This document shows positions 1,779 to 44,179 of a stretch of DNA of 64,000 nucleotides, in pieces (within the stretch, counting starts at the first letter, position 1; the number at the start of each line of letters is the position of its first letter). Source of the stretch: Paulownia fortunei (taxonomy: Eukaryota; Streptophyta; Magnoliopsida; Lamiales; Paulowniaceae); the NCBI GenBank assembly GCA_019321725.1, contig CM033110.1:14873278-14937277 (forward strand), in the 5' to 3' direction. Made by a program: the position numbers and the translations under genes. The notes beneath the pieces were generated by a model. It did no database searches. It worked only from the letters and a program-made list of their open reading frames with translations, and was not told the origin of the DNA.

Positions 1779-3554
1779 TCATAAATTCATATTTTGATAT
1801 ATTTTTTTATTAATTTTTTATTTTTTTTTTATTCTTGTTAATATTATAATTTTATTAATTTTTTATATTAGAAAATCAATGAACAAAAATTGATCAAAAT
1901 GAGCCAAAATGAAATCAAAGAAGACAACACGTTTCGTGAATAAATTGGGAGATAATATTTCATTGGATCAAAAAAGCATCACAATTAAAAAAAAAATGGC
2001 TAGTTTTGCCTAAATCCATCATGTGTAGATTAAAATATATGCAAGAAATCTCTTGAATTTTGCAAGTGATTATTGTACTTACATTAAATTCAAAATAAAT
2101 ATATTTTCAGACTTATCCAATCATATTTTGGCATAACTCTATATTCAAAAAACTTTATGGACCTGAATCTTACTTCATTTGAAATTTAAGAGATAGAACT
2201 ACAATTTTGTTGTTCGAAACTTAGCCCAATTCAACTTTGATTATAATATAAAATTCGTCCATATGTGTACATTAGAAAGAATGTATCTATACTGAAACAT
2301 TTCTTTAAATCAAGCATTAATTTTCTCCCTAGTAGTTGGAATTAGGTGTTCAAGATGAAAAATGAAGATAACTAACGAATCTTTAACTTTCATGTTGATC
2401 ACTTTTCTAAAATCAGCTGATTTCGTAGAGAAAAATATGTGACAAAAATCAGATTTGGAAAAGACATGTGAATTCAAAGCATATTTGAAGTTAATTTGGA
2501 GTGCATTTGAAGTAAATTTGAAAATACCAATTTATGCACTCTTCTACTATAAATAGGAGTTCTTGGAAGACATTCAAAACATAAAAAAAAAACCCTTATG
2601 GGGGAGGGGGAAATAAAGTTTTATTGTTGTATTTTTTTAGACTAAGTTTTCTAATAGTAATAAAAATGTATTCTCTAGTTTCTCTTCTATTTTTAGTCTT
2701 TTCTACTTTCATTATATCTTTCTAAATTTCATTTAGTTGAGGAGAAATGGTGAACCTCTTGATAGAGGAAGATAAATGGTTATAAAATGCATATGTTCAG
2801 ATGTGTTGTATTATTGTTTTAATTTTTGATTGAAACCCTTCTTATTTTGTGGTGATTCTTGATTTATGTATCACCAATGACACAACAAATATTTAGATTT
2901 ATTTAACTTATTGTACGGTTCTACTCCACCAACTGCTAATGTAAAACCTTAATCTATTGTAGGTGTGCATAAAACTTAATCTCATAAATAAGTGTTGGCG
3001 TTAAAACCCTTCTTGTTTAGTGGCGATTTTTTATTTTTGTATCACTAATGATACAATAAATATTTGAGTTCATTTAACTTATTGTATGGTTCTACTCCAC
3101 TCACTGCTAATGTAAAACAATGATTTGTGGTAAATAAATATGTGCATAAATACTTGATCCCATAAGTAAGTATTGGTATTAAGAGATAATTTGCAAACAG
3201 TAAGATAATATCATGATTACCTTAATGAATAACCTATTTAATAGCATCTTTCCATTGGAACCTTTATTGTGTATGAATTTCAATAGTGGTATTTAAAAGA
3301 GGTAAAAATAATAAATAATTATTCGTCTATCCAAAACTTAAGAACGGATCTCTAATCCTCAATACTTTTATTACTTTGATTTCTTAGTTATAATATAATT
3401 TTTTCTTTATAATCTAAACTATATTCAACCCATCTTTTAATAAATATAAACTAAAAAACTTTAAACAACTTCCATATTGATCGATCTTGAACTCCTGATA
3501 AATTTATTACTTAACACAACTTGTACTTAGATTTGCAATCTTAAAGTTGTAGCA
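1779..3554 (+). repeat. 5' LTR of Athila-like copy 1
   Basis: This is homologous over its length to the sequences at 8484-10231 and 31512-33221, and in reverse to 26797-28553. The family consensus starts TGATAAGTGCATATTTTG and ends AAAGTTGTAGCA; here the start has decayed to TCATAAATTCAT. A good TATA box sits inside, about 1 kb before the LTR end. The length of about 1.77 kb fits Athila-type LTRs. Confidence 0.85.
2548..2556 (+). promoter_or_regulatory. TATA box of the LTR promoter
   Basis: TATAAATAG follows CTTCTAC here. The same motif recurs at the equivalent place in the other family LTRs (9229-9237; 27779-27787 on the minus strand; 32380-32388). Conservation in four LTRs supports it as the retroelement core promoter, and transcription (the start of R) would begin about 30 bp downstream. 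Confidence 0.7.
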
Positions 3555-3560
3555 AGTTTT

Positions 3561-3578
3561 TGGCATTGTTAGTAGAGA
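3561..3578 (+). other. Degraded tRNA-Asp-type primer binding site
   Basis: Six bases after the LTR end, the sequence begins TGGCATTGTTAGTAG. The intact plant Athila-type PBS, complementary to the tRNA-Asp 3' end, begins TGGCGCCGTTGCCGGGG. Copy 2 has an equally decayed version at 12263-12280, beginning TGGCGTCATTACC. The position directly after an LTR ending in CA supports the call; the exact primer tRNA is inferred. Confidence 0.6.
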
Positions 3579-3605
3579 ATACAAGGTAAATATTCAACTT
3601 TGTAA

Positions 3606-5330
3606 ATGTTTTTCCTTTGTAAATATTGTGTGTCTAAAATTCTTTATGATTATATGCTCATATGGTATCGTAGTCATAATTTTCGACGTTTAGCTAGAAA
3701 CAATTCTGAAATTTTGTTTGAAAATTTATTTGAGTCACCTCCACACACATCTGACATAGCTGAAAATGAAAGTGTTCAGGATGAAATGAGAATTAACAGG
3801 TCTGTATCATACATTATTACTTGCAATCTTTTCGAAATTAATTTTATTTTTGTTTCATTTTTCCTCTTAATGCAAATAACTTTTGATTCAAGCCATGTAT
3901 GATCCCTATACTTCCTAATTTCCATGGTTTAGACTCTGAAAGTCCTTACTTGCATTTGAAAAAATTTGATGAAGTATATGCCACTTTTGAAAATCAAACT
4001 TGTACAAATAAAATCGTTAACCTCAAATTTTATTTTTTTTTAAAAGATAAAGTAAAAATTTGGCTTAACTCTTTAAAACTTAGGTCAATTGGTACTTGGC
4101 AAGAAATGCAAGTTGAATTTTTGAAAAAGTTCTTTCCAACTCATAAAACTAAAGTTTTGAAAAGACAAAGTTAAAATATTTCTCAAAATTCTGATGAATT
4201 TTTCTTTCAATATTGGAAAAGATTTAAAAATTTATTGAATTATAATTAATGCCCACGCAACGGGGTGAGTTTGGGATGGGTTTGGCCAAACTCGAGACCC
4301 GGCCCGCCTCGAACATAAAACCCGATGGGTCCAATCCGTTTGGACCCACTAACCCATTTTCAAATTTCTTAAATTATTTTTTAATCTCAATTACTACACT
4401 TTTGAAATTCACCTTATGATATATTTTGAAAAAAAGAGATGATATAAAAAATATGAGAAGATAAATATAAGTCACCAACATCTATTTACAATTCCTAAAA
4501 TCAAATAAAAAAAATTTCCAATACGATTTTTCCACTTTATTAACATTACAAACCCTAACAACACATATTAATTAAAATACGGGGCGGGTCCAATAGGACC
4601 CGTTACCCTCCCGGACCCAATCGGGTTTAAAAAATCAAAACTCATTGCCCTTCCTAAACTCGTTTAGTCGGGTTTGAACCCGCCCCTAATAGGGCGGATT
4701 TGTTATGGGATCGATTTTAAACCTGACCCATTGTCATTCCTATTAAAAAATGGTGCTTAATTAGTTTCTTTTATGGAGGTTTAACTTCTCAAACAAAATA
4801 ATTTATTAAAATAATATGTAATGATGAGTTTCTTGATAAAAAACTTGATGAAACCCTAGAATATTTAGATTATTTGGCATAAAATTCTCAATCATGGCAG
4901 AGCGTTAATTTTTCCGAAGGTTATATTAGATCTAATCTTACTAATAGTAATAAAGAAAAATATTACCTTAGTCAGAAAGATGATCTAAATGCTAGAATTG
5001 CTAGTTGAACAAGAAAAGTTGAGGCCATGGAATTTAAAAAAGTAAAGAAAATTAGATTTGTGCAAGATAAAGAAATTTGTAGCATTTGTGAACTTGTGAG
5101 ATACTCTACCAATAAATGTCCAAATATTCCAACACAAGCAAATGTCATGAACTCATTCAAAAAATCTTTTTATTATATTCTGAAACTTACAATCCACAAT
5201 GGAGAAATCATCCCCATTTTAGTTGGTGAGATAAGAATCGTGCCCAATCGCTATATTCACAAAAGCCACCAAACTTTTCTTCTTATCCAGCTCCACATAC
5301 AAAATCCCTTGAGGACACAGCTCCAATAGG
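3606..5330 (+). pseudogene. Athila-like gag remnant, interrupted
   Basis: An N-terminal piece (3606-3899) leads into a recognisable Retrotrans_gag segment (3899-4174) with the family's FHGLDSESPYLHLKKF and WLNSLKLRSIGTWQEM motifs, ending in a stop at 4172. Gag text resumes after an inserted repeat (about 4250-4740) as SFFYGGLTS, then a YLDYLAEN-like stretch and the NARIAS/RKVEAMEFKK segment, with a Cys-rich piece (CSICELVRYSTNKCP) near 5080-5125. Several stops and frame changes are present. Near 5320 the gag C-terminus runs straight into the end of protease, so the gag-protease linker and the protease catalytic Asp have been deleted. Gag would form the particle that packages element RNA; this copy cannot do so. 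Confidence 0.8.
4250..4738. mobile_element. Probable small non-autonomous DNA element (hAT-like MITE) inside gag
   Basis: Gag homology stops near 4240 and resumes near 4741. The insert's ends are roughly inverted: the left end has GGGGTGAGTTTGGGATGGGT, and the right end, reverse-complemented, begins TAGGAATGACAATGGGTCAG. GC-rich motifs of the GGGCGGGTCC/GGACCCGCCC type recur inside in both orientations. Such ends are common in plant hAT-type MITEs. I could not see a clean 8-bp target duplication. A related end (TTAACTCATTATCATCCCTA) occurs near 62234-62253. Confidence 0.5.
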
Positions 5331-5339
5331 GGTTGTGGA

Positions 5340-6000
5340 GATGTTCTTATGTAGGTGAATGAATTAGTTTTTCATGCTGATTTTTATGTTCTTGAGATGG
5401 AAGATGACACATGCCATAATCCTACACGTATTTTTTTGGGAAGATCATTCATGAAGACAACCCTAGCTAAGATTGATGTTCATGATGGCACTCTTACTAT
5501 GGAGTTTAATAGCGAGGTTATAAAATATAATATTTTTGAAGTTATGAGATATCCTACAGACATGAATGTTGTTTCTGCAGTTGATATTATTGATCACAAG
5601 TCAAAACAAATGCTTGAGTTCACTAGCAAGGATGGAGTGGAGGTTACTTTACAAAAAAATCTCCTTGTGGATGATTTGAAGAAAAGAAGTTGGATATACA
5701 AATGTTGGGGGAAGTGGAAAATAATGTAGCAGGGCTGGATTTGTTGCCAAAAAAATTAAGGTATGATGTTTTTTTATGTTGAATTGCCAATATCTAACGA
5801 GAGGCTTCTACCTTCTGCGGTGCAGACACCTACAATGGAGTTTAAACCAATCTCAGACCATCTTAAATATGTCTACTTAGGTGAGAAAGAAATACCAGTA
5901 GTCAGTATTACTAAAGACCTCAGTTAAGTACAAACGGACAAACTTATTTGGATGCTTCGAAATTATAAAATGGTGATTGGATAGACGATGGTTTTGGCAA
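5340..6000 (+). pseudogene. Protease C-terminus and RT N-terminus remnant of copy 1
   Basis: The frame at 5355-5729 (124 aa) has the retropepsin C-terminal text FYVLEMEDD, FLGRSFMKT, KIDVHDGTLTMEF and NIFEVMRYP, common in Athila-type elements. The catalytic Asp segment that should precede it is absent. After a frame change, 5783-5925 encodes the start of the RT region (LPISNERLLPS, then a KPISDHLKYVYLGE-type motif). A segment near 5940-5990 resembles the conserved IGWT motif before the RT core. The RT core, RNase H and integrase are gone: the sequence passes directly to the post-pol segment ending in GGGAGGCAACCCAAT near 6074. Confidence 0.75.
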
Positions 6001-6540
6001 CATATGTTGATGAGTGATGAAAGAGGCAATGTCGGGTTGAGGACATTAAACCAAGTGCTTGATGGGAGGCAACCCAATAGATAGAAAAGAAAACTATAAG
6101 AGCCGATAATCACATATTTGCTTTCTTTAACACTCATTCTTTTTTCTTTTGATCCATTTATTTTTTTTATTTTGTCCAAATCGAAAATGCGTGTTGATAA
6201 TTTGTTAGGCAGTATTTTATAATTTTTTCATGCAAGAGCACATGGTAGTCACTTTTCGATAAAGAAAACCACTATAAAGATCTTGTAGTGTGGATTTTAT
6301 TGACCTATTATTTTCAAAGACACTTCCACTTTCTGCAAAAGTTATAAAAATTATCAAAAATTATGATCCTTCCTGGTTAAGTGGTGAATAATGGTACTCC
6401 ATGGCTATTGAAGTCGAACTTATCAGTTTTCCAAACAACTGGAAAAAAAACAAAACAAAAACAAAATAAAAAAATGCAAGTTCCTTAGGAATGATTTCTA
6501 AAAATTGAGAAGATAAAATTCAATTCATTATGGATGGACT
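6001..6540 (+). other. Post-pol untranslated segment of copy 1
   Basis: The segment contains GGGAGGCAACCCAAT (about 6062-6076), a motif seen after pol in Athila-type elements. It then holds a stretch (6370-6440) shared with copy 2 (12840-12905), with the phrase GTACTCCATGGCTATTGAAG. No reading frame of interest is present. The shared stretch shows that both copies have the same element sequence leading into the cargo. Confidence 0.6.
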
Positions 6541-6552
6541 AAGTAAGCTTTA

Positions 6553-6815
6553 GATGACATTGTATTGACTTTTGAGATGCATTCATGTGAATTAGTACCA
6601 TGTGCAATTCTTGATTTTTGGAATTACTTACGAGATGAATATGAACGTTATAGTTTTGGGAATCTGACATTAAAAGACTCTGTTTGTCAGTTTATAAGAA
6701 AACTGGATGGAAAGCATATTCTCGACCCATAAAGAGCGTTTGATCCATTACTAAACATAAAACCAGAAGAAGATGTGAGCCACAATCACAACTTGTGTAC
6801 ATTCACGTGTAAGTA
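6553..6815 (+). pseudogene. Unidentified coding-like segment upstream of LOG, copy 1
   Basis: One frame stays open for about 57 codons, then has a single stop (in CCCATAAAGAGC near 6728), then stays open for about 29 more. The text includes ILDFWNYLRDEYERYSFG and CQFIRKLDGKHILDP. The same text occurs in copy 2, with the stop at the same place. I do not recognise the family. The open frame in AT-rich DNA, together with conservation between two elements, suggests a protein fragment rather than chance. It might be a second captured host exon or a remnant of an element-encoded ORF. A splice-like GTAAGTAG follows near 6809. Confidence 0.45.
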
Positions 6816-6900
6816 GCTAATTTTCAAATTTTATATCTTTATTTTCAACCTTTTTGACAAAAAAAAGATATGCAATAAATGCATTCCATGTTCACACATT

Positions 6901-6909
6901 AATAAATAG
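6901..6909 (+). promoter_or_regulatory. TATA-like motif before the LOG fragment
   Basis: AATAAATAG lies 58 bp before the LOG ATG at 6967. The same motif is 55 bp before the matching ATG in copy 2 (16000-16008), and the block around it is conserved. It could be the promoter of the captured gene; function is inferred only. Confidence 0.35.
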
Positions 6910-6966
6910 CACCGTACTTACCCCATTTTAGCATAACTCATTTTCTACTCTCTAAAAAAAAGAGAA

Positions 6967-7309
6967 ATGAAAGTCTCTTCCACTCGCAAGCTCAACTGTA
7001 TTTGTGTCTTTTGTAGAACCAATCAAGAAAAAAATGGTGAGTTTATAGAGGCGGTCAATAACCTTAGTAGAACTTTAGTAGAAAGAAAAATTTATATAGT
7101 GTATGGGGGAGGCAGACTGGGGTTAATGGAAAGTATTGCTACTTCTGCTCATGTGGGAAGAGTCAAAGTTTTAGGGGTTATCACAAAATCTTTAACAGTA
7201 CAGAATATCACAAATATGACCATTGGAGATTAATTAAAAATGTCACATATTTAGGACAGAATTCCTAACATATTAAACAATGCGGATGTATTCATCACTC
7301 TACTTGGTG
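6967..7309 (+). pseudogene. LOG-type cytokinin phosphoribohydrolase, truncated (copy 1)
   Basis: LOG enzymes release free cytokinin bases from cytokinin riboside 5'-monophosphates in one step. The frame from ATG 6967 reads ICVFC, VYGGGRLGLM and VLGVITKSLTVQNITNMTIG, the N-terminal half of the LOG Rossmann fold. A stop follows at codon 89 and another soon after. Homology then continues in the same frame as DRIPNILNNADVFIT and LLGGFG, where functional LOGs have LPGGYGTLEE. It ends abruptly at 7309, joined to sequence that in copy 2 lies about 780 bp further on, so the C-terminal half is deleted. No intron interrupts it, whereas plant LOG genes normally have several. It is a clear pseudogene within the retrotransposon. 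Confidence 0.85.
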
Positions 7310-8483
7310 GTTTTGGACTTTATTGTTATTTTTTGGTTAATATATTTAGTGTTAATTATACTCAAATCTTTTTGCACAAATAGTTACGTTATTCGATGTG
7401 GAGACAAGCATGTCAAAATAGATAGTTTGTATACCCTCTCTTTAACCATCATTTGGATTTTCGATATGTAGGGATTGAATGATAGAACTTTTTCTTTTGG
7501 TCTGTCGAGACAAATGACTGATTGAGCGCCACTTAAAAAATAATTAGGCCATTAAGCTTTCTAGCACTATAGTCAAATCAGTTTGTCCCCCATGTAATGT
7601 TCCAAGAGAACATCCCCCATAGTGGACCACTTTGAGTCTTTTAATAAATAAGTCTTTTTCTGTGATAATCATATCTTCTTACCTAACCTAAATATACTAT
7701 TATCCTACCCTTATTCTAAAAATGATTTGAAATTTAAGAGACACTCTATTGACAAGGTGACTTGCAAAAGAAATTTGAGTTGGAATAGAAAATAAATATG
7801 GGGGAGTTTCTCTTCAAAAAAAATAAAAACAAAAATAAAAATAAAAAAGTCACAAAATATTAAAAATATTATGAATTGCAACTAAATATGGGATGTTGCA
7901 AAATCAATAAGAATGATGAAGATGGGTCCAATTTAATAGCAATAGGCCTCCGTATTGAAATTTATGGAGTATAAGAATTCTTCATTGATAAACTCTATGT
8001 CTCTAATCTCATGAAGTTTTTAAAACCTTTGTTACATCTTATCTTTTTATTTTTTAGCCACATCACTACCATTTGGTCATATTACAATATTTGTTGAACA
8101 CTTTTTGATTTCGTATGGTGTTTTCGGTGTAGTGGAGATTTGTACCAAATGAGAGTCTATAATGTTTAACTCTTCCACTAGAGATTGGATGATGGTTTTG
8201 GTGAGGCTTTATAGGAATTTACTTGTTTGAAGTATGCATTATGTCATCACTGTTAACATTAAATATTCACACACATACACTTGAGTATGTTTATTGTGGA
8301 AATATATTGACTTTTGAATGACTAAGGGTTAGATTCAACACTTGTTTGATTTCATTTCTATATTACTTTGTTGTTTCATGAGAATAATGATTGAAAGTTA
8401 CTTAATAGGTGATTGTGGGTATCACCGCTGGAAACCCTCACAAGACTATAACTCGTCCTCTATGGGCCACCTAGGGGTTTAAA
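7310..8483 (+). other. Sequence between the LOG fragment and the 3' LTR, copy 1
   Basis: Bases 7310-7962 are homologous to 17192-17820 in copy 2 (shared text such as ACTCAAATCTTTTTGCACAA and GGGATGTTGCAAAATCAATA). They belong to the shared element or the captured gene's 3' flank. Bases 7963-8483 have no counterpart in copy 2 and no recognisable gene. The small open frame at 7280-7471 is out of frame with LOG and is not credible. A purine-rich AGGGGTTTAAAGG just before the LTR could be the polypurine tract. Confidence 0.55.
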
Positions 8484-10231
8484 GGTTTATTGCATATTAA
8501 ATTCTTTATACGTTCCTTACTTTATTCTTGTTCATATTATAATTTTATTAACATTTTGTATTCGGGATTCAATGAACAAAAAAAGATCAAAAAGAGTTAA
8601 AATATAACCAAAGAAAACAATACATTTTGTGAGCAAATTGGGAGATAATATTTTATTAGATCAAAAAAGCATCACAATTAGAAGAAAATGGTCATTTTTG
8701 CCTATGTTCACCATGTGTAGATCAAAATATATGCAAAAAATCACTTCGACTTTGTAAGTGATTGTTGGGCTTGAATTAAATTCAAAATAAACATCTTTCC
8801 AGACTTATGCAGTTTTGGTTTTTTAGGTATAACTCCATACTCAAAAGTCCTATGGACCGAAATCTTACTTTATTTGAAAGCTTTGTTGTTGGAAGTGCAG
8901 CCCAATTTTATCTTGATTATAATAGAAAATTCAAAATATGTGCATTAAAAAAAATCTATCTATGCTAACACATTTTATTAAATCAAGCATAACTTTCTCC
9001 CTAGTATTAGAATTAGGTGATTCAAGTTGCAAATTAAAGCTAACACACAAATCTATAGATTTTATTTTGATAACACTTTCAAAATTAGCTAATTTTATGG
9101 AGAAAAATATATAACAAAAATCACATCTGAAAAAATATGTGAATTTAGAGCACATTTGAAGTTAATTTGAAATGTATTTGGAGTGAATTTGGAGATGCCA
9201 ATTTAGACACTCTTCTACTATAAATAGGGGCTCTGAATGGCATTCAAGATACACGAAAAAAAAATTATTAGAGAGGAAAAGAAAGTTTTATTATTGTCTT
9301 TCTTTAGACTAAGTTTTCTGGTGGTAATGTAAGTTTTCTAATAGTAATAGAAATGTATTCTCTAGTTTCTCTTTTATTTTTAGTCTAGTCTACTTTTATT
9401 ATATCTTTCTAAATTTTATTTAACTGATGAGAAAGGATGAACCTCTTGATGGAAGAAGATGAACGGTTATAAAGTGTATAATGTTCAAGTGTGTTGTATT
9501 ATTATTTTAATTTTTAATTGAAACCCTCCTTGTTTTGTGGTAATTCTTGATTTATGTATCACAAATGACACAACAAATATTTGAGTTCATATAGTTTATT
9601 GTACGGTTTTACTCCATCAACTACTTACCTGAAACATTGATTTATTGTAAACAAAGATGTGTATAAATAAGTATTGATGTTAAAACCTTTTTTATTTAGT
9701 GATGATTATTAATTTTTGTATCACCAATAACACAACAAATAATTGGATTCATTTAGCTTATTATACAATTCTACTGCACCAACTGCTAACGTGAAACCTT
9801 AATTTGTTGTAAATAAATGTGTGCATAAATACTTGATCCATTAAACAAGTATTGATGATAAGATATAATTTGCAAATAGTAAGATAATATAATGATTACC
9901 TTAACGCATAATCTATTTGATAACATATTCCCATTAGAACACTCATTATTTATAGATTCTAATTGTGACATTTAAAAGAGATAAAAATAATAAATAATCA
10001 TTCATCTATTCAAAACTCAAGAGCGGATTTCTAATCCCCAATACTTTTATTACTTTGATTTCTAGTTATAGCATAATTTTTTTTTATAATATAAACCACA
10101 TTCAATCCATCTTTTAAAAAATATAAACTTGAAAACTTCAAACAACTTTTCTATGGATCGACCTCGGACTCCCAATAAATTTATTATTTGACACAACCTA
10201 CACTTGGGTTTGCAACCTTAAAGTTGTAGCA
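8484..10231 (+). repeat. 3' LTR of Athila-like copy 1
   Basis: This is homologous to 1779-3554 along nearly its whole length. It lacks about 20 bp near its start (the TTGATATATTTTTGTATC part). It ends AAAGTTGTAGCA at 10231, followed by ACCAC, a near match to the ACTAC before the 5' LTR. Its TATA box is at 9229-9237. Many substitutions and indels separate the two LTRs, so the insertion is old. Confidence 0.85.
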
Positions 10232-10236
10232 ACCAC

Positions 10237-11494
10237 TAAATGGATTATTAAATATATTAATTTAAAATTTTAGAATAGAATATATAGGCATCACAATTCG
10301 ATTTGTTTGAATTTTAAATCGCCATCAAACCATAAAAAATGATGTGATTTTAATTTAACTTTTTAAATTAAAATTTATATAACAAATCAATCAAAATAAT
10401 TTGATACAAGTTTAGTAAGTCAAATATGGGGACGGATCATATACAAATTTGTAGATGTAGGGGTAAAATACAAATATCAAAATAATTGTTCGGAGGAAAA
10501 ATGCAAATCATTTTGACATTATTTTTATATGTATTGTATTTGTACTAATTTTATATTGTGCAAAATTTTATTATATGTATTTTTATATTATTTAATTTAT
10601 AATTATGACACTTCTTAGATATAATTATTTAACAATAATTAGTATTTTTATAAATTATTAGAATTTTTATTGTTTATTTATATGATATTCAATTAATATA
10701 TTTGATAACTTTTATATAAATTTTTAATTTTAATTAAATATTATATTTGTTTAAATGGAGTATTATTTCATCAAGTATTATACGAAATAAATATAATATG
10801 TATATTAAATGGTTTATCCCAAAAGTATGAATATTATTCGATAAGTTTAGAATGTGTATGGCAAACGGAATTATTTTTTAATTATTTATACATATGTACT
10901 ATACATGTATCATACAAATTTTAACTAACAATGATCATACAAACAAATTAATTAGTTCGTATAGTTTTTCAAATTTTATGACCAATCTAATTAACCTGAA
11001 AAATATATTGTTAAACACAATGTTTTTGAAAACCATATCAAACAGACTAGTTTGATTGGTCCAACAACAAATAGGTGATTGGTCTATTTGAGTGCAAAAA
11101 ATCAAAAATTTGCTCGAACTAGTTGAACCGATCAATTTTATTTATTTATTTATTAATATTTTTTAGAAAGCTTAAACTTGATAATTGGTTATATGTATGT
11201 ATTGGATTTTGAGTTCTGTTAAATATATTGTTTAGTTGATTATTTATCTTTTTTACATTGTATATAATATCTTTTTAGTTGATTATAACATCTTTTTTAC
11301 ATTGTATTACCATAAATAATATAATAAAAATATAATTAATTTTTATTAGATGATCGAACCGATAATTAAAATTGGTGATCAAATTATTCGATCAATGATC
11401 CAATTATGAAAATATTGGTTAAACTTAAACATAACTTTTCCGTTTAGGTTAGTGTGTACAAGTCTACACTCATTGGAATTATTATTTGGTCATT
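10237..11494. other. AT-rich spacer between the two Athila-like copies
   Basis: No gene is seen. It does not resemble the left flank of copy 1 (1-1778), which indicates that the two retrotransposon copies sit at unrelated target sites rather than in one duplicated block. Confidence 0.5.
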
Positions 11495-11600
11495 GATGGA
11501 TATGAAAATTGTATTTATTTTATTTATTTATTTATTTAATTTTACTTAATTTTATTCATTCCTAGGCCAATAGATAATTAACTCAGATCTAGGGGCAAGT
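11495..11600 (+). repeat. Left member of a roughly 105-bp direct repeat flanking copy 2
   Basis: The segment beginning GGATATGAAAATTGTATTTA and ending at CAAGT directly before the copy 2 LTR recurs at 19163-19263 (GGGTATGAAAATTGTATTTA to GTAAGT). The match covers the whole stretch, with a few substitutions and a small length change in the ATTT run. It is far longer than a retroviral target duplication. Confidence 0.75.
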
Positions 11601-12254
11601 TGATAAGTGCATATTTGATATATTTTTGTATCAAATAATTTATATTTTCCTTACTTTATTCTTATTCTTATTATACTTTTATTAATGTTTTGTGTTAGAG
11701 AATCAATTAACAAAAAGATATCAAAAAGATCTAAAATAAAATCAAAAAAGATAACATATTTCGTGAGCAAGTTGGGAAATAATATTTTATTGGATTCTAC
11801 CCCACCGACTCTTAATGTGAAATATTGATTTGTTGTAAACAAAGGTATGCATAAATACTTGATCCCATAAACAAATATTGGTGTTAAGATATAATTTGCA
11901 AATAGTAAGACAATATCATGATTACCTTAATTCATGAGCTATTTGATAACATCTTCCCATTGGAATTTTCATTATATATGGATTCTAGTTGTAGCATTTA
12001 AAAGAGGGAAAATATATATATATAATCATTCTTCTATTTAAGACTTAAAAGCGGATCCCTAATTCTCATACTTTTATTACTTTGATTTCTTAGTTATAGC
12101 ATTTTTTTATATTCTAAATCACATCCAGCTCATATTTTAAGAAATATAAACTTGAAAATTTCAAACAACTTTTCTGTGGATCGACCTCGGACTCTCGAAA
12201 AATTTATTACTTGACACAGCCTACACTTAGATTTGCAACCTTAAAGTTTCAGCA
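11601..12254 (+). repeat. 5' LTR of copy 2, internally deleted
   Basis: It starts with the intact family end TGATAAGTGCATATTTGA and ends AAAGTTTCAGCA. Compared with the other LTRs, about 1.1 kb is missing from the middle; the join is near 11796, where TTGGATT meets CTACCCCACC. The TATA box region is in the deleted part, so this LTR has probably lost its promoter. Confidence 0.85.
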
Positions 12255-12262
12255 AGTTTTTT

Positions 12263-12280
12263 TGGCGTCATTACCAAGGA
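12263..12280 (+). other. Decayed primer binding site of copy 2
   Basis: TGGCGTCATTACCAAGGA follows the LTR by 8 bases. It resembles the tRNA-Asp-complementary PBS of Athila-type elements more closely than the copy 1 version does. Confidence 0.6.
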
Positions 12281-12284
12281 AAAT

Positions 12285-12750
12285 CTTGTCATTAGGCATG
12301 TCTCCTTATAGGATAGTTTATGAAAAATCTTATCATTTACCTCTTGAACTTGAATATAAAACTTATTGGGCAATTAAAATGTTTAACTTCAACTATGATC
12401 AAGCTTCAAAATTGTGAAAATTGCAAATTAATAAACTTCAAGAATTGAGAAATGATGCATATGAGAATTCTAAAATTCATAAAGCAAGAATCAAAGAATT
12501 TCATGATAATAAAATTTCAAGAAAAACATTTGATGTTGGTCAAAAGATTTTGCTTTATAATTTTCGATTGCATTTATTTCCTAAAAAATTGAGATTAAGG
12601 TAGAATGGTCCTTTTATTATAAAAGAGGTATATCCTTATGAGGCGATTGACATTGAAAATCTTAAAAATAGTAACATATTCAAAGTAAATGGATAAAGAC
12701 TTAAACCATTTCTAGAGAATCGCTTTTCACAAGAGAACCTTTGTTATGAT
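12285..12750 (+). pseudogene. Integrase C-terminal remnant of copy 2
   Basis: The open stretches 12211-12417 and 12421-12603, in the same frame and split by one TGA, contain MSPYRIVYEKSYHLPLELEY, KTYWAIKMFNFNYDQASKL and ARIKEFHDNKISRKTFDVGQ. This is the post-catalytic end of a Ty3/gypsy integrase, including the GPF-like motif (NGPFIIKEVYP near 12605-12637) and VNGQRLKPFLE-type final text. The catalytic DDE core, RNase H, RT and gag are absent: the remnant begins only about 30 bp after the PBS. Integrase would join element DNA to the genome; this fragment cannot. Confidence 0.8.
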
Positions 12751-13344
12751 TAGTATGTGTACATATATACATATTTTCTCTAACTTTGTTTAGTTTGTAG
12801 GATTTTTTCTTTTATTTTTTTTTTTTTTCTTTTCTTTTTCTGGTTAAGTGACGGATAATGGTACTCTGTGGCTATTGAAGTTGGATTTATCAGTTTCCTA
12901 AATAACTGAAATGAAATCTATGTACAAAGTTTCACTCTTTTTCTTATTCTCTTTTCTTGTTCTTTTAAAAATGGATAACATTCTTCTAACTCTCAAGAAA
13001 CGATTTCATTCTCTTCCTAAAAATGGAATTTTAAAAATTTATAAAACCATGATTAAAAGATTAATGATGCTTATACACAAGGACATCTTAGGGGACATAC
13101 GATGGATTATCGAAGCAAAGGTAAGGGTAGCAGGCGAGTTTTCACATGAGTTTTCAAACTTGTGTACTATATACATACCTGATTTTGGTAAAAATACATA
13201 TTCAAAAAAACGAAGGGCAAAAAAATGCAAGTTTGTCACAAATGTGCTCAATGGACTTGCAACACAAAGTGTCATTTCTTAGGAATGGTTTCTAAAAATT
13301 GAGAAGATAAAATTTAATTCATTATTGATGGATTGAGTAAGGAG
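12751..13344 (+). other. Post-pol segment of copy 2
   Basis: The stretch contains a T-rich run (12800-12840) and GGTACTCTGTGGCTATTGAA (12857-12876), shared with copy 1 at 6392-6411. A 123-codon frame at 12911-13282 is not supported as a gene: copy 1 has no equivalent and the text resembles nothing I know. From about 13275 the sequence again matches copy 1 (6487 onward). Confidence 0.5.
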
Positions 13345-13479
13345 TCTTTAGATGACACTATAATGACTCTTGAGACGCATTCTTGTGGGTTAGTACAACA
13401 TACAATTCTTGATTTATGGAATTACTTTTGGGATGAATATGAGCGTTATAGTCTTGGGAATCTGACATTAGAAAACCTT
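13345..13479 (+). pseudogene. Unidentified coding-like segment, copy 2, left part
   Basis: The open frame contains ILDLWNYFWDEYERYSLG, matching copy 1. It is cut after LENL by the solo LTR at 13480 and resumes at 15778 with CQFIRKLDGKHIIDP. The stop after DP (near 15825) is at the same place as in copy 1, so it was already present in their common ancestor. The family is unrecognised. Confidence 0.45.
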
Positions 13480-15772
13480 TGTAACACCCCTTAACCTAAC
13501 TGTAGAGCCTAAACAAGGTGATACAGTTAAGTCAAGAAATGTTAATTTTTCATCAATACTAAAGTTATGGTTTTAATAAAAGTTCCCATTTTTAGCTGTA
13601 GGAGAGAGTTTGAATCATTTTAAATACACTATATACATATATCAAAACTGAATACATCTGTTTACAAAACCATAACAAGCAGCTTATTTAAAAACAAAAT
13701 AGAGTTTTCAAAATATGATACAAAATAGCTCGAAGCATGACATATGACAAAATCTCTGTCCGGCCACTCTAGAGACTCAGTTAATCTCTAAATCTGTACA
13801 TTTCCACCTACATCACATGAATCTAATGAGCTAAAGACTTAGTAAGGTGAAACTGATGCAATAACAAATAGCGTACATACGAATCACATAAATGATTAAA
13901 TGCAATATTTAATTTAATAACTTTCTTTCATAAATCATTCTTTAGGCCTCTTAAAGTGTGGTACCTAATTAATAGCGATAGATCATGATTTTTGGAATCT
14001 GTTCATAATGATTGGCCAATAAGAGAAATAATATGGGGTTTTCATAATTGGTCTTTCAACCTCAAGTATTAGTCGTATTCTATCTCATTCATTGTGGCTT
14101 TCCTATACCAATTTTTCAACCTCAAGTATTTTCCACCATTTGTTGTGTCCATCGGTCCCTCCCGCATCCTTTGTCTACCCAACCATCAATCAAGTACCAT
14201 ACTTCCTTTTCAAGAAAACTTCATTATATCCTTAATAGTATCATGCTTCATAAACTATAAAGGCATTAAACATTACATCATTGACAAATAATAACAATCA
14301 CATTAAAATATAAATAATATTATATGATTCTTGTGATGAAGCAAATGAAAGTTTCAACTTACCTCAAGTCCACTTTGTGGCAAGTGAAAAGACTAATCTA
14401 TTTGGAAGATAGGATGTGTTAAATACCTAATATAATAAAATCATGTACCATTTAATATTCTTTTTATAAATTATTTAGTCTATTCTAGTTAAAGTTTATA
14501 TACAATTTTCAATCTTTTGTAAAGAATTCCATATCAATTACATAACCTTAAAAACAATGCATATTCCATATTTTACTACTAATTCAAGACATTAAACATT
14601 AGGTCAACCATTAAATAACTAATAATTCAAACATAATTATTAGAGCAGCCCCTAAAACATGCACACAATCCAAATTAACATGATGTAAATTCGGTTCTAA
14701 CTTAAATTGATTGTACCCTTCAATTAAGCAAACTAATTGCTATTGTTTTCAATCATTCAAAAAAACTTCCAAACACAACATAAGTATTATAAAATCGATA
14801 GAAACAAGTAAATTAAACAATTTCACAAGACTATCAATTTTGCTAAAAATTAACTTAACTAGCTTGGTTTTGGCTTCAAGTGTAACTTACTTAAGTTTTC
14901 AATCATACAAAAATATACTAAAACATGTAACCATCCAAGATACTACAAATTCATCTTAAGAAACATTGAAAAAGAATATACCTTGATTAAATTGCAATTA
15001 TGCTTCAAAATCAACAGTTTTCAAGCTTAAAAAAGGTGGAACTTGTTCTAGTTTGTGTTCTATAAATTTCTATGCATTGAATTCAATTTTTTGAGTATTA
15101 GAGTGTAGAAATTTGGGAGAAACTTAGGAGAATAAGGGCTGGTCGTTTTTGAGAAGCTTCTACAAGAAATATAGATGAAAATGATTTCTTTGATCTTTCA
15201 AAGAGAGGTAAGTGGAGGGTGATGGTTGGTTGTATTATGCTTGGTGTCTTCTCATGCCAAAACCCACGTTCATGGTCTAAGGAGATGACAAAAATTGATA
15301 CTTTGGTGTTATAATCAAGTGCAATGCGTTTTAAAATGGTTTTATGCAACCTAGCCAATCAATCAATCAAATTGCACCATTTTTCATACCTTTAGTTCTT
15401 AGCCAAATGTAACATATTTCAAGTAAATATTTAGGCAATTAGTCACTTTAGCACATAACTAGTGTGGAGCAATACAAATAATTCATTTCATGGTCATTCA
15501 ACACATCAATCTTCCTTAACCGAGATATCAAGTTTTTCACTGCAAAAAGGCACTTAAGGAATATGTTAAATCAAGAAATGAAAGTTTGATCTCATATTTC
15601 ATGTATTAATGCATGTTAAAGCATAATTGAAGCATATAATAACAATTATTCATGTTCATGCAATCATACTATTTGTATGCCATAATTCGATAATGTACAT
15701 TGATTAGATGCATATTCATGCAAGATACTTATTATTGGTTATGTATGAAAGAATTGAGAATTGGGCATTACA
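13480..15772. mobile_element. Solo LTR of a second retrotransposon family, nested in the cargo
   Basis: The insert starts TGTAACACCCC and ends GGGCATTACA (imperfect inverted ends), flanked on both sides by ACCTT (13475-13479 and 15773-15777), a perfect 5-bp target duplication. Removing it restores the same order as in copy 1. It has no protein-like frame and no internal LTR pair, so a solo LTR from LTR-LTR recombination is the simplest reading. The perfect duplication suggests it is younger than copy 2. The family is not assigned. Confidence 0.88.
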
Positions 15773-15777
15773 ACCTT

Positions 15778-15910
15778 GTTTGCCAATTTATAAGAAAACT
15801 AGATGGAAAACATATCATCGACCCATAGAGGGTGTTTAAGTTGTTACTGGACATAAAATCAGAGGAAGATATGAGTCACAGTCACAACTACATGTACATC
15901 CACATGTAAG
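15778..15910 (+). pseudogene. Unidentified coding-like segment, copy 2, right part
   Basis: This continues the segment at 13345-13479 beyond the solo LTR. The text CQFIRKLDGKHIIDP, a stop, then SEEDMSHSHN matches copy 1 (6685-6815). A GTAAGTAG follows at the same relative place as in copy 1. Confidence 0.45.
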
Positions 15911-15999
15911 TAGCAAATTTTCAAATTTTATGTCCTTATTTTCAATCTTTCTGAAAAAATAAAAAGACATGTAATAAATGCATTCCCTATTCACACCTC

Positions 16000-16008
16000 A
16001 ATAAATAG
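16000..16008 (+). promoter_or_regulatory. TATA-like motif before LOG copy 2
   Basis: AATAAATAG is 55 bp before the ATG at 16063 and is conserved with copy 1 (6901-6909). The surrounding 100 bp is also conserved. It may be the captured gene's own core promoter; this is inference. Confidence 0.35.
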
Positions 16009-16062
16009 CACTGTACTAACTCTATTTTTGCACAAATAATTTTCAAAGAAAAAAAGAAAAAA

Positions 16063-16717
16063 ATGAAAGGGTCTTTCACTTGCAAGTTCAATTGTATTTG
16101 TGTCTTTTGTGCAACTAATTCAGGAAAAACATTGTGAGTTTATTGGGGCAGCCAATAACCTTGGTAGAAGCTTAGCAGAAAGAAATATTCATTTAGTGTA
16201 TGGGGGAGGCAGTCTGAGGTTAATGGAGAGTGTTACTATTTCTGCTCATGTAGGAAAAGTCAAAGTTTTAGAAGTTATCTCAAAAATTTTAACAGTACAA
16301 AATATCACAGGTATGACCATTGGAGATAAGCTAAAAGTGTCACTGATTCAGTACAGGATGCCTAGCATACTAAATAATGCATATGCATTCATCACTCTAC
16401 CTGGCGATTTTGGTACACTGGAGGAATTACTTCAAGTTGTTTCTTGGGTACAACTCAACATTCACCAGAAACCTGTATATATTCTTAATGTTAATAATTT
16501 CTTTGATGGTTTGCTATCTTTTGTAGATCATGCTGTAGAAAAAGATTTTATTTCATCGTCTGCGAGACGAATTCTCATTTCTGCTCCAATACCTGACCAA
16601 TTGATTGATCAACTTCTAACATATGTGTTAGAACCTGATCCAGCATTGGCTCATGTGGATTGGTCCAACAAGGACAATGGTCAAAAACATAAAATGAATT
16701 TAACTCTCAGTTTGTGA
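16063..16717 (+). pseudogene. Intronless LOG-type cytokinin phosphoribohydrolase (copy 2), frameshifted near the start
   Basis: The expected ATG is at 16063 (CICVFCATNSG follows), but one extra base near 16120 relative to copy 1 shifts the frame and gives a stop at 16135-16137. The main frame is then open from about 16100 to the TGA at 16715-16717, about 200 codons, close to the full LOG length of 210-220 aa. Seen in order: VYGGGSLRLM; the ITGMTIGD segment; QYRMPS with the Arg at the conserved substrate position; LPGDFGTLEELLQVVSW, the LOG signature with PGG changed to PGD; VYILNVNNFFDGLLSFVDHA; and FISSSARRILISAP. The catalytic Glu of the signature is kept. Plant LOG genes usually have several introns and this has none. 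Without a suitable in-frame ATG upstream it is probably not translated, but the long open frame suggests recent decay. The gene symbol is left blank because the LOG subgroup is unknown. Confidence 0.82.
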
Positions 16718-17820
16718 AATGTATCCTTAATGGTTTCAATTAATAGTATATATATTATGTTGTTTCATCTTTATTTTTCAATAAGTCATATTTCAAGTAA
16801 TATCTTCTAAATTTTAATTTTCTATCTATTTTCGATATTGGGTACAATGTCTCGATTAGGTTGGAGAATAAGATAGTTGATATCATGTCTTATGTGTTCA
16901 ATGTGTGTTTTTTTTCTAATTTGTTTTTTAAAAATAAAAAATTTCAAGCATGTTTGTTTTTGGGTCCGTTGAAACCATGAAAAGGGGTGGCGTACTAAAG
17001 GGTAATTGTAAAACTCTTGAGACGCACCCCTATATATATATATATTTTTTGTATAATATGTCAAGTTTGTGAAGTTTTTAATAAAAATTTGTGAAATGTT
17101 ATTTTTTTTTAGTCGTAAATATTCTTCCAACTTCAATAATTAAAATTAAGCATAGATAATGTAGTTTGATTGATGATAGGTGTTGCTTTGGACTTTAATA
17201 TTGTTCTTTGGTTAATATATTTTTATAATAATTATACTCAAATCTTTTTGCACAAATAGTTAGGTTATGCGGTGCATGTCAAAATAGGTAGTTTTTATGT
17301 ACTCGCTTTAATCATCACTTGGATTTTTAACATGAAGGGATTGAGTGTTAGAACTTTTCATTTTGTCTGTCGAGGCGAACGACTAATTAAGCACCACTTG
17401 AAAAATGATTAAGGTATTAGGCTTTCTAGCACCATGGCCAAATTAGTTTATTCCCCATGTGATGATCCAAGAGAACACCCCCTCCCCCCTCATAGTGAAC
17501 CACTTTGAGCCTTTCAATAAACAAATATTTTTTTTTGTAACCATATTTTCTTACTTAACCTAAATAAACTATTATCCTACCCTTGTTCTAAAAATAATTT
17601 GGAGTTTAAGAGATATTCCATTAACAAGGTGAGCTTGCAAAAAGAAATTTATATTGGAATAAAAGATAAGTGTGTGGGAGTTTTTCTTCTAAAAAATAAT
17701 AAATAAAAAATTGCAAAGTGTTAAAAATATTACGATTTGCAACTAAAAATGGGATGTTGCAAAATCAATAAAAATGATGAAGAATGGTCCAATTCAATAA
17801 TAATAGGCCTCGGTATTGAA
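16718..17820 (+). other. LOG 3' flank and shared downstream block of copy 2
   Basis: Bases 16718-17190 are absent from copy 1, where they fall in its deletion. Bases 17192-17820 match copy 1 at 7310-7962. No second gene is seen. A (TA)n run lies at about 17031-17044. The block passes directly into the LTR start at 17821, without the extra 520 bp present in copy 1. Confidence 0.5.
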
Positions 17821-18184
17821 AGATAAGTGCATGTTGTGATATATTTTTGTATCAAATCTTTTATATTTTTCTTGTTTTATTCTTTTTAATATTATAATTT
17901 TAATAATATTTTGTATTAGGAAATCAATTAACAAAAAAATATCAAAAAGAGCCAAAATAAAATTAAAGAAGACAACACGTTTTGTGAGCAAGTTGAAAAA
18001 TAATATTTTATTTGATCAAAGAAGCATCACAATTAGAAGAAAATGACTACTTTTATCTAACTTCATCATATCTAAATCAAAATATATGCAACAAATTATT
18101 TGGACTTTGCAAGTGATTGTTGGACTCAAAATCAGCATATTTCCAGATTTGAGTAATTTTGATATTTTGGGAATAACTCCATGT
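17821..18184 (+). repeat. 3' LTR of copy 2, truncated after 364 bp
   Basis: It begins AGATAAGTGCATG (family TGATAAGTGCATA) and follows the family LTR up to GGGAATAACTCCATGT. Sequence rich in GGCCGAGGC then replaces the rest, including the TATA box and R region. Confidence 0.8.
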
Positions 18185-19162: not shown

Positions 19163-19263
19163 TAGGATGGGTATGAAAATTGTATTTATTTTATTTTATT
19201 TATTTTTACTTAATTTTATTCATTCGTAGCCCAATAGATAATCAACTCGGATCTAGAGGTAAG
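19163..19263 (+). repeat. Right member of the roughly 105-bp direct repeat
   Basis: This matches 11495-11600 and likewise ends in AAGT. The next bases here are TGACAACTCAAG, whereas at the left copy TGATAAGTGC (the LTR) follows. Confidence 0.75.
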
Positions 19264-19269
19264 TTGACA

Positions 19270-19912
19270 ACTCAAGTCATTTAAGAGACTCAAGTTGCCC
19301 AAAATACAAAACACTTGTGTGATAAGACAACTAGGCCCATGAACTTTACATTATATCAAATGTTCATAAGGCTCATATCCCAAAATAAACGGGTAAAAAT
19401 AATCACTATTTCCACATTTACAAGATACACAATATTAATTCATATTTTGATTTAATAATTATTCTCTCGAATATTTACTAATTTAGATATCGAAGAGACT
19501 TTCATGAAACAATTTCAACACCTTCCTCCACACACAAAAAAACCATCTTAAGAAATTAAGAGTTTTATGGAGAGGTGTTGAGAATTCATTTATACAGCTC
19601 TAGCATCCAAAAAACTAACAGCATCAGTCATTTATATGTCCATTTAAGATTTAACAAAAACAAAAACAGAAAGAAAAAAAAAATGGCCCAAAAGAAAAAG
19701 GGTACGACGTCGTGTCTTAGGGTTCATCCCTGCAGCCCGAACAAAAACCCCAGTAGAACACAAAAACCCTGTGATCAGATAATTGAACCCTAGCATTTCG
19801 ATGGAGTTCTGAATAACAGATCCCAAGACTTTTTCCAGGTTTCCAACCCTCCACATACACAGGGTGATATATAAATACATACATATATACACAAGCCTAA
19901 TACATTCAGAAA
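19270..19912 (+). promoter_or_regulatory. Upstream region and probable 5' UTR of uL15
   Basis: No gene is seen. Near the start codon, composition becomes gene-like. AGGGTT/AACCCT elements occur (CTTAGGGTTCATCC near 19717-19730, AAAAACCCTG near 19762, TTGAACCCTAGC near 19784), resembling the telo-box common in plant translation-apparatus promoters. ATATATAAATAC near 19868 could be a TATA box. The transcription start is not determined. Confidence 0.4.
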
Positions 19913-26796: not shown

Positions 26797-28553
26797 TGCT
26801 ACAACTGTAAACCCAAATATATGTTGTGTTAACTAATAAAATTCACGGGAGTTCAAGGTCAATCCATAGAGAAGTTGTTTAAAGTTTTCAGATTTATATT
26901 TCATAAAAGATTGGCTGAATATGATTTAGATTATAAAAAAAATTATGTTATAACTAAAAAATCAAAGTAATGAAAGTATTGAAAATTAGGAATCTACTCT
27001 TGTGTTTTGGATAGAGGAACAATTATTTATTCTTTTTACCTCTTTTAAATATCACTATTGGAATCCATACATAATAAAAGTTCCAATAGAAAAATATTAT
27101 CAAATAACTCATGTATTAAAGTAATCAAGAATTTATCTTATTGTTTACCAATTATCTCTTAACAACAATACTTGTTTATGGATCAAATATTTATGCACAC
27201 CTTTGTCTACAACAAATTGAGGTTCACATTAGCAGTCGGTGGAGTAGAATTGTATAATAAGTTAAATGAACCCAAATATTTGTTGTGTCATTGCTAATAC
27301 AAAAATCAAGAATCACCACTAAACAAGAAGGGTTTTAACGCCAACACTTATTTATGATATTAAATATTTATGAATACATTTTTCTACAACAAATCAAGGT
27401 TTCACGTTAGCAGTCAATGGAGTAGAACCGTACAATAAATGAACCCAAGTATTTGTTGTGTCATTGATAATACATAAATCAAGAATCACCACAAAACAAG
27501 CAGAGTTTCAATCAAAAATTAAAATAATAATACAACACACCTGAACATTATGCACCTTTATAACCATTCATCTTCCTCTATCAAGAGGTTCACCCTTTTT
27601 CCTCAGGTAAATGAAATTTAGAAAGACATAATGAAAGTAGAAAACACTAAATATAAAAGAAAAACTAAAGAATACATTTCTATTACTACTAAAAAACTTA
27701 GCATAAAAAAAGACAACAATAAAACTTTATTTTCCCTTCTGAGGATTTTTGTGTGTCCTCAATAACATCCAAGAGCCTCTATTTATAGTAGAAGAGTACC
27801 TTGACATATCCAAATTCACTCCAAATGCGCTCCAAATTTACTTCAAATATGCTCTAAATTCACACGTTCTTTTCATATCCGAATTTTGTCACACATTTTT
27901 TCCATAAAATCAGCTAATTTTGGGAACTTATCAATATGAAAGCTTGTATTTTTTGCTAGCTTCATTTTCCAACTTGAATCACCTAATTCAGACTGCTAGG
28001 GAGAAAGTTATGCTTGATTTAAAAAAATATATCAGCATTGATAGATTTTGTTCAATACACACATTTGGACAAACTTTCTGCTTTAATTAAGGCTGAATTA
28101 GGTTGAGCTTTCAACATAAAAGTTGTAGTTCTATCTCTTGAATTTTAAATGAAGTAAGATTCAGGTTCATAAGGGTTTTGACATAGAGTTATGCCCAAAA
28201 TACGAAAACTACACAAGTTTGGAAAAATATTTATTTTGAAATTAATGCAAGCCCAACAATCACTTGCAAAGTCCAAGTGATTTCTTGCATATATTTTGAT
28301 CAACACATGATGGACTTAGGTAAAAATGACCTTTTTATTCTAATTGTTGTGCCCTTTTATCTAATGAAATATTATCTCCCAACTTGCTCACGAAACGTGT
28401 TGCTTTTTTTTGTTTTATTTTGACTCTTTTTGATATCCTTTGTTTATTGATTCCCTAATACAAAACATTAATAAAATTATAATATTAATAAGAAAAAAGT
28501 AAGAAAATTATAAAGAATTTAATATCAAAATATATCAAAATATATACTTATCA
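26797..28553 (-). mobile_element. Solo LTR of the Athila-like family, minus orientation
   Basis: In reverse complement it matches the family LTR from end to end: TGCTACAACTGTAAACCC at 26797 is the LTR's 3' end and CTTATCA at 28553 its 5' end. The flanks CAAGA (26792-26796) and CAAGG (28554-28558) match at 4 of 5 bases, fitting an old target duplication. The TATA box is at 27779-27787 on the minus strand. No internal element sequence accompanies it. Confidence 0.9.
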
Positions 28554-35050: not shown

Positions 35051-35056
35051 AAATCG

Positions 35057-35820
35057 ATGATCCAAAATACTTCAAATACCATCGTTTGGTGGGGCATCCA
35101 ATTCATGATTGTTTCATATTCAGACAAAGTCATGCAGTTGATTCATCAAGGGAAGATCACACTTGAGGAAGATAATGTGGATGTCAATCTTATCACCATC
35201 GCATTTAGATCTTTTGATGTCATAACGGAGAATGTGCCTGGGTGGAATGGTGGTCGAAGACTTGATCATAGTGATGTGTTTTATGTAACATAACAAGTGA
35301 ACAAAATATTTCCTCTAGTACAGTCTGCTTGCCTGGGATAGGGGTTCATACACTCATTGATGATTATATCTCAACAATGACCTTCACTGATGAGGACTTG
35401 CTACTTGGTTCCAAACTCCATAATAGGTTGTTATTCGTAACTAGTTATACTCGCGAGCAAAAAGTAAATATGATTTTAATTGGTAGATGCTCTGCAGTTA
35501 ATATCTTGCCTTTACGTATAATAAAAGAGGTGAGAGTTTTTATGGATGAACTTGCAAATAGTCGCTTGATGATCCAAGGTTTCAACCAAGGGGACAAAGG
35601 GCTCTTAGCATCATAAGGTTGAAGTTGTTGATGGATGATATGGCCTCAATTATGCTATTTCTTGTTATAGATGCCAAAAAATCATATAACATGCTTCTTA
35701 TCGCCCTTAGCCAAACAAAAATGGAGAAGTTCCTTCTACTTGGCATTAGTGTTTCAAGTATTGTCGAGATGGTGTAGTGAAAAGAGTGTTTGGTGATAAT
35801 TAACCTTTCGCTGAGGCTGA
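35057..35820 (+). pseudogene. Tat-lineage protease remnant, catalytic Asp lost
   Basis: The frame 35329-35616 has FTDEDLLLGSKLHNRLLFVT, then ILIGRCSAVNILPLR, then SRLMIQGFNQGDKG. Intact relatives have VDGGSAVNILP at the second motif; here the Asp-Gly-Gly is replaced, so the aspartic protease active site is gone. Several stops follow 35616. Confidence 0.8.
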
Positions 35821-44150: not shown

Positions 44151-44179
44151 GGTTCGTGAACAAGTCTCAAAAGAGCATT

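Follow-up and report, generated by a model that had tools for sequence, protein, structure and literature searches.

The stretch analysed here, a 64,000-nucleotide window of Paulownia fortunei (C6:14873278-14937277 of the 509 Mb assembly that we searched), contains two relics of one long terminal repeat (LTR) retrotransposon family, each with the remains of an intronless LOG-like gene behind an open reading frame (ORF) that resembles a viral nucleic-acid-binding protein (NABP). LOG and NABP-like genes lie inside elements of this family and have been copied to many genomic sites with 5-bp target-site duplications (TSDs). Taken together, our observations make it likely that an old Athila-type Ty3/gypsy family carries the NABP-like gene along with a LOG gene that was captured once and altered in its pocket, and has copied both to many sites. 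The source would have been a spliced plant LOG mRNA, captured once before lamiids and rosids separated (over 100 million years ago) and since passed down with the element, which may retain it for its own use.

Genome searches with Pfam family PF03641, the family LTR and the NABP-like query gave 2486, 6854 and 5204 first-look candidates, respectively, numbers that do not represent confirmed copies. All 150 of the PF03641 candidates that were scored exceeded the family cut-off, and these places are spread over contigs C1-C20 and many small contigs; 40 LTR and 150 NABP-like candidates were scored. The NABP-like ORF was found immediately 5′ of LOG in eight of the first eight loci. A further 20 loci of 10 kb, hand-picked at about every sixth to ninth of the 150 best rows (one out of turn) and biased to intact copies, contained the integrase end in 18 cases, the NABP-like ORF in 19 and, 1.6-1.8 kb downstream of LOG, a same-sense family LTR in 18. 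The order integrase end, NABP-like ORF, LOG, LTR was complete in 16 of them; the exceptions are without integrase and NABP-like ORF (L121), integrase (L125) or LTR (L127, L128). Perfect 5-bp TSDs, each different, flank six of seven copies tested (GAGGT, AGATG, ATAAT, AGAGT, ATGGA, TTTAC), the start of the 5′ LTR having failed to align in the seventh (L124), and the flanks 3′ of 14 right LTRs all differ from one another. Different TSDs, different flanks and conserved order together indicate retrotransposition of the LOG-bearing unit, as the initial annotation had proposed for an intronless LOG gene inside an Athila-type element. That annotation had also named two outcomes that would speak against transposition. 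The first, a genome with only two LOG copies within one duplicated block, is ruled out by the 150 above-cut-off places and the differing TSDs; the second, LTR junctions that arose independently of LOG, is contradicted by the regular LTR position in 18 of 20 copies and by the TSDs. In one copy (L135, ~5183-5941) the NABP-like frame is fused to the LOG frame in a single open frame of 239 residues, a deletion-like arrangement.

The family shows the traits of a Ty3/gypsy LTR retrotransposon, namely two LTRs, a 5-bp TSD and gag and integrase remnants, the integrase label being based on a match to the Rhamnella protein P0245. Spare room with extra ORFs between pol and the 3′ LTR, an Athila feature, is present (16 of 20 copies). 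We further take the integrase wording and a primer-binding-site-like TGGCGTCATTACC at 12263 to indicate an Athila/Tat likeness.

Within the window, LTR coordinates and self-comparison confirm the annotated picture of two elements of one LTR family at separate sites. Three blocks follow in the same order in both elements with 80-85% identity (6481-6678/13275-13476, 6656-7316/15754-16413 and 7312-7960/17187-17821), again as had been described. The features of the family are as follows.

1779..3554, + strand: element 1, 5′ LTR; TSD copy ACTAC at 1774-1778
3887..4174, + strand: element 1, gag remnant (PF03732, E 3.9e-07)
5355..5729, + strand: element 1, protease-like remnant; its reading has weak matches (28-32% identity) in 9 of 20 genome loci
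6481..6732, + strand: element 1, carlavirus-NABP-like ORF remnant; open piece 6547-6729 (E 3.5e-29), stop TAA 6730-6732
6967..7316, + strand: element 1, intronless LOG-like gene, 5′ half only and interrupted by two stops; the 3′ half is deleted
7312..7960, + strand: element 1, stretch downstream of LOG, common to both elements
8494..10231, + strand: element 1, 3′ LTR; TSD copy ACCAC at 10232-10236
11601..12254, + strand: element 2, 5′ LTR; large internal deletion at ~11795
12298..12750, + strand: element 2, integrase C-terminal remnant; a 37-residue stretch is 68% identical to Rhamnella P0245
13067..13479, + strand: element 2, NABP-like ORF up to the insert; pieces with E 2.8e-12, 4e-11 and 5.8e-24
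13480..15772, no strand assigned: LTR-like insert of another element, 2.3 kb, TGTAACACC...GGGCATTACA, with a perfect TSD ACCTT on both sides; splits the NABP-like ORF of element 2
15773..15828, + strand: element 2, remainder of the NABP-like ORF after the insert, closing with stop TAG 15826-15828
16064..16717, + strand: element 2, intronless LOG-like gene, spanning the whole gene; N-terminal frameshift, PGG changed to PGD
17187..17821, + strand: element 2, stretch downstream of LOG, common to both elements
17822..18184, + strand: element 2, 3′ LTR, truncated by another sequence
26797..28553, - strand: solo copy of the family LTR; TSD CCTTG/TCTTG, 4/5
31512..33221, + strand: solo copy of the family LTR, with a perfect AGATC TSD; a stretch near 44662, related in sequence, resembles its empty site

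Both window elements are decayed relics, and neither copy holds an intact LOG gene. The annotated LOG gene is thus present and intronless in each, as only a 5′ half in element 1 and with a frameshift and PGD in element 2. In element 2 the 5′ LTR runs almost directly into the integrase-like remnant. The element 1 remnant at 5355..5729, presumably a protease, gave no Pfam family above cut-off in the Pfam scan. The element 1 TSD, ACTAC/ACCAC, agrees at four of five bases, which fits a single old insertion. The LTR pair of this element differs by a Kimura two-parameter distance of 0.215, compared with 0.011-0.054 in five genome copies (one measured over part of its length); at plant rates that we assume, 0.215 corresponds to ~8-15 million years. 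The two window LOG copies differ at codon positions 1, 2 and 3 by 21, 17 and 20, near-equal numbers indicating that the relics decay neutrally. In the window, 2031 stop-to-stop pieces were compared with the LOG profile and the upstream-ORF profile; at E <=0.01 the matches came only from elements 1 and 2, with best E-values of 5.7e-89 and 3.5e-29, the latter flattered because relatives retrieved with the element 1 reading itself went into that profile.

Other repeats were seen in the window. To the left of element 2, 112 bases (11495-11606) reappear at 19166-19270, past the truncated right LTR, and probably belong to another repeat family. Two 177-base units, ~95% identical, lie in tandem at 43797-44153, and 45341-51498 and 55678-61386 share long same-orientation blocks of ~71-81% identity, perhaps a duplicated gene. 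We take the open frame 19901-20368 to resemble ribosomal protein L15, and the reverse-transcriptase and RNase H-like wording of 34726-38914 to mark remnants of another gypsy-type element.

The open frame 16067-16717 of element 2 matches PF03641 (E 9.5e-29), and its best PDB match is At2g37210/AtLOG3 (E 2.5e-42); together with the profile matches, this rules out a chance or misread LOG. A protein search with the window LOG returned 424 relatives. Among the best 120 listed, hereafter TE-LOG (TE, transposable element), the nearest are 74-79% identical, the named ones come from P. fortunei, Rehmannia, Reevesia, Orobanche, Diplodiscus and Populus, and a single cluster can represent as many as 244 sequences (P0116, Orobanche hederae). 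These rows were compared with a canonical plant set, the best 120 of 7733 matches to AtLOG3, and with 80 bacterial rows, using the residue numbering of P0001. The motif PGGxGTxxE, in which window element 2 has PGD, is found in 105 of the 120 TE-LOG rows, and Arg98, Thr118 and Glu121 are kept in 111, 118 and 117 rows. Lys99 and Glu124 are found in 0/120 TE-LOG rows versus 120/120 AtLOG3-like plant and 80/80 bacterial rows; the replacements are mainly Met, Ile or Leu at position 99 and mainly Gln or His at position 124. All 28 unbroken Paulownia copies have Met at 99 and Gln at 124, and all keep the catalytic Arg and Glu.

According to the available parts of two structural studies, the Lys beside the catalytic Arg belongs, together with the Glu, to a proposed prenyl site (PMC5379747, PMC4979012). 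In the available account of CgLOGII, a Corynebacterium enzyme, the Lys-Glu pair is located at the dimer interface and aids dimerisation, and the Lys156Ala, Arg155Ala, Thr175Ala and Glu178Ala mutations abolished activity (PMC5379747); we mapped these residues to P0001 through the offset of the common PGGxGTxxE motif (170 versus 113). A fold model of the LOG-like protein (predicted local distance difference test, pLDDT, 80.5) has AtLOG3 as its top structural match (E 6e-22). Judging from alignment and model, TE-LOG is a LOG-fold relative that retains the phosphate loop as well as the catalytic Arg and Glu, but has its adenine/prenyl pocket rebuilt. Loss of Lys99 and Glu124 makes normal cytokinin activation doubtful, so that it cannot be assumed for the TE-LOG sequences, and we expect the protein to hydrolyse or bind nucleotide monophosphates in an altered way rather than to activate cytokinins as usual. 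The initial idea that a hormone-activating gene could be spread in working form is not supported: both window relics are defective, and the listed clade is without both residues.

The alternative, that the element-borne LOG is an ordinary cytokinin-activating enzyme, with the element gaining from local cytokinin release or merely causing it, appears unlikely to us. It would agree with the retention of Arg98, Glu121, Thr118 and the PGGxGT loop in most rows, with the AtLOG3-like fold of the model and with open frames that are somewhat constrained. Against it stand the replacement of Lys99 and Glu124 in every TE-LOG row and every unbroken Paulownia copy, the placement of both lost positions in the proposed prenyl pocket, and the requirement for the Lys in CgLOGII (PMC5379747, PMC4979012).

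Constraint was estimated from 28 Paulownia element copies in which the LOG frame is unbroken, comprising 11 of the 28 loci L110-L137 and 17 of the 20 hand-picked loci L144-L163, all chosen or kept for open frames; the fused L135 was left out of codon counts. The mean ratio of replacement to silent substitution rates (dN/dS) among them is 0.40, and replacement and silent differences number 53:38, compared with a ratio of ~2.25:1 predicted from an assumed transition weight. An 11-copy version of a test contrasting shared with rare differences looked skewed (2 replacement to 6 silent versus 23 to 9), and the 28-copy version was not significant (p 0.65, 0.20). The same test on 10 copies of the NABP-like ORF showed no difference (7:4 versus 9:5). 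Constraint on the active LOG lineage is thus suggested, not proved. These data bear on the proposal that LOG is a passive hitch-hiker without a role, whose open frames reflect young copies. The non-significant test and the near-equal codon-position differences of the window copies favour such a passenger; the low dN/dS and a replacement-to-silent ratio below expectation do not, and frames of 217 residues with the same motifs on both sides of the lamiid-rosid split would be hard to explain without selection. We therefore regard a passive role as improbable.

Genome queries with canonical LOG sequences of 218 and 68 residues returned, among the best 150 rows each, only identities of 42-54%, like those of element copies, and host genes were therefore sought by codon pattern. 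A pattern for MH(Q/E)RKAEM matched 17 genome places (control, 0), which do not equal 17 genes, as small contigs account for several matches with the same string, and some are probably repeats. Host LOG loci were split into exons in 12 of 12 examined, with breaks, where seen, at approximately residues 41, 73, 84, 117, 141 and 188 of a Buddleja protein. All 12 also keep the Glu after LL in GT(L/M)EELLE; the pattern demands Lys99, so the Lys is there by construction and Glu124 is not. Because the element LOG runs in one frame across the host exon breaks, a spliced mRNA is its natural source. A LOG tree had been suggested as a way to the donor. The donor gene cannot be named, since no canonical plant row is more than 52% identical to a TE row in the alignment.

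In a maximum-likelihood tree (37 of the 120 TE rows plus the window sequence, 23 of the 120 canonical rows plus LOG8, and 26 of the 80 bacterial rows), the TE-LOG, canonical and bacterial groups each fall on one side of a branch, with support of 100/98, 100/100 and 97/72, respectively. A quick tree of all 120 TE, 120 canonical and 80 bacterial rows likewise gives one clade each (support 0.993, 0.68 and 0.949); the three-group tree is without a sure root. Inside the TE-LOG clade, a lamiid side of 26 rows (9 unnamed; support 0.969) and a rosid side of 94 rows (54 unnamed; support 0.813) match the host side of 57 of 57 named rows, P. fortunei being a lamiid and Reevesia, for example, a rosid. One capture before the lamiid-rosid split followed by vertical descent would be the simplest reading of this tree, and a local or recent capture does not fit a clade that covers lamiids and rosids.

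Two other accounts of origin were weighed. We hold it quite improbable that the gene came from a bacterium rather than from a plant mRNA, in spite of the absence of introns, identities of up to 50% with bacterial LOGs, the unrooted tree of three groups, and a motif, NVNxF(Y/F), that is common to TE-LOG and 24 of 26 bacterial rows and found in 0 of 24 canonical plant rows. TE-LOG is slightly closer to plant LOGs (mean identity 45.4% versus 42.2%), and TGxTxG and SAxT occur in 0 of 26 bacterial rows, in 30 and 18 of 37 TE rows and in 22 and 21 of 24 canonical rows, although two Caldilineaceae rows have AGETIG, one letter off the 'plant' TGxTxG. Of the bacterial relatives found, LOGs of Caldilineaceae (L030-L040) rank highest (45-48% identity). 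A history in which separate plant lineages each captured a similar LOG cDNA, which the moderate rosid-side support and the repeated description of LTR-element gene capture in plants (available part of PMC7264820) would allow, is less probable still, given a single clade in both trees and two replacements absent from all canonical and bacterial rows compared.

The segment upstream of LOG, initially described as an unknown coding-like segment, appears from its reading to encode a small, basic, cysteine-rich protein resembling carlavirus nucleic-acid-binding proteins. A query with this ORF returned 14 related proteins. In a Rhamnella gene model, the integrase end continues into an NABP-like part. 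The NABP-like frame is conserved beyond its stop codon, the stop being followed by a stretch like RAFKPLLDVKPEEDVSHNHN in 18 of 22 genome places, and readthrough of this stop is possible. Two NABP-like relatives, P0242 and P0244, have a residue in place of the stop. A GTAAGT splice donor after the NABP stop, present in both window copies, was rejected, as it follows the motif in only 1 of 22 genome places. No Pfam match was obtained for the one window NABP-like piece scanned. Scans of virus contigs found no NABP relatives; they contained 29 distant LOG loci, the top-ranked being 32% identical over residues 9-152.

Several points weigh against our preferred reading of an old Athila-type family carrying an NABP-like gene and a once-captured, altered LOG. 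The carlavirus relation is moderate, PF01623 (carlavirus NABP) being passed at the Pfam cut-off by five of eight relatives and PF05515 by three of eight, and the fold model of the NABP-like protein failed (pLDDT 42.5) and was not used. The effect of the mutations was measured in a distantly related type-II LOG (P0001 versus 5wq3, E 4.1e-08), and the loss of Lys99 shows a changed canonical site and no more. The canonical rows, as the nearest to AtLOG3, are a narrow plant sample, and their clade has a support of just 0.68 in the large tree; the rosid-side value of 0.813 and the non-significant 28-copy test belong here too. Linkage outside Paulownia rests on the available part of PMC9289625 and on the one Rhamnella gene model, in which the integrase end is joined to the NABP-like part, not on DNA. 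Finally, assignment to the Athila lineage rests on integrase wording, the primer-binding-site-like sequence and the position of the extra ORFs. The alignment we refer to as A1 comprises 29 of the 120 TE-LOG rows. A bolder extension of our reading, a long shot in our judgement, is that a cassette of virus-type NABP and rebuilt LOG has been kept for about a hundred million years, acting on host RNA and on a nucleotide signal other than a cytokinin precursor, as counter-defence and not as a hormone source.

The abstract of Steinbauerova et al. 2011 (Genetica 139:1543) is said to name two Athila-like elements similar to LOGL4. LOG capture by a plant LTR element is already known in kind, and the initial statement that no described LOG-carrying LTR element was known is corrected by a printed account that, in the part available, places a YgdH (LOG-type) domain in consensus sequences of LTR elements from Citrus and Populus and calls this 'in line with' Steinbauerova et al. 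2011 (PMC9289625). What is added here is the single clade, the lost Lys-Glu pair and the NABP-like neighbour. The Citrus and Populus gypsy elements share with the Paulownia family a LOG-type domain within a plant LTR element; the Paulownia family differs in its host, in its thousands of first-look candidates and in its demonstrated TSDs and gene order, and its NABP-like neighbour and lost Lys-Glu pair were not met in the available part of that account (PMC9289625). Populus proteins, known from protein sequence alone, fall inside the same TE-LOG clade, and Citrus is not among the named rows. AtLOG3, a type-I LOG (2a33), shares the fold, the PGGxGT loop and the catalytic Arg and Glu, whereas TE-LOG is ~50% identical to it, has Lys99 and Glu124 replaced, and is intronless and retrotransposon-borne. 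Carlavirus NABPs (PF01623, PF05515) share the basic stretch and cysteine cluster, with relatives above the Pfam cut-offs; unlike them, the element ORF sits after integrase and has a C-terminal part conserved across relatives. An orchid Ty3/gypsy element with an m6A RNA demethylase domain is likewise a plant gypsy element with a host-type enzyme domain, but the enzyme is another and its capture is described, in the part of the source available, as recent, whereas the LOG capture appears old and host-congruent (PMC9289625). The available parts of PMC7264820 and PMC11963269 contain no mention of LOG. A betaflexivirus replicase-like sequence has been reported in cucumber near a retrotransposon-like sequence, in the available part of PMC3136472, in whose text 'nucleic acid binding' is absent. 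A title and abstract search of the literature found no report on the NABP-LOG pair or on the lost Lys-Glu pair, an absence that is not proof.

These results carry a caution for annotators. In the databases, four named Paulownia rows are labelled hypothetical proteins, and Populus P0068 and P0114 are labelled probable LOGL10 enzymes despite being without Lys99 and Glu124; where a plant genome carries such elements, its LOG family may be counted too high. The viral likeness of the neighbouring gene suggests that plant RNA viruses and retrotransposons have exchanged sequence, in either direction. If our reading is true, a selfish element has kept a host enzyme gene in major lineages of plants, with the active site altered, and with this family one could test what benefit a retrotransposon draws from a gene that it has stolen.

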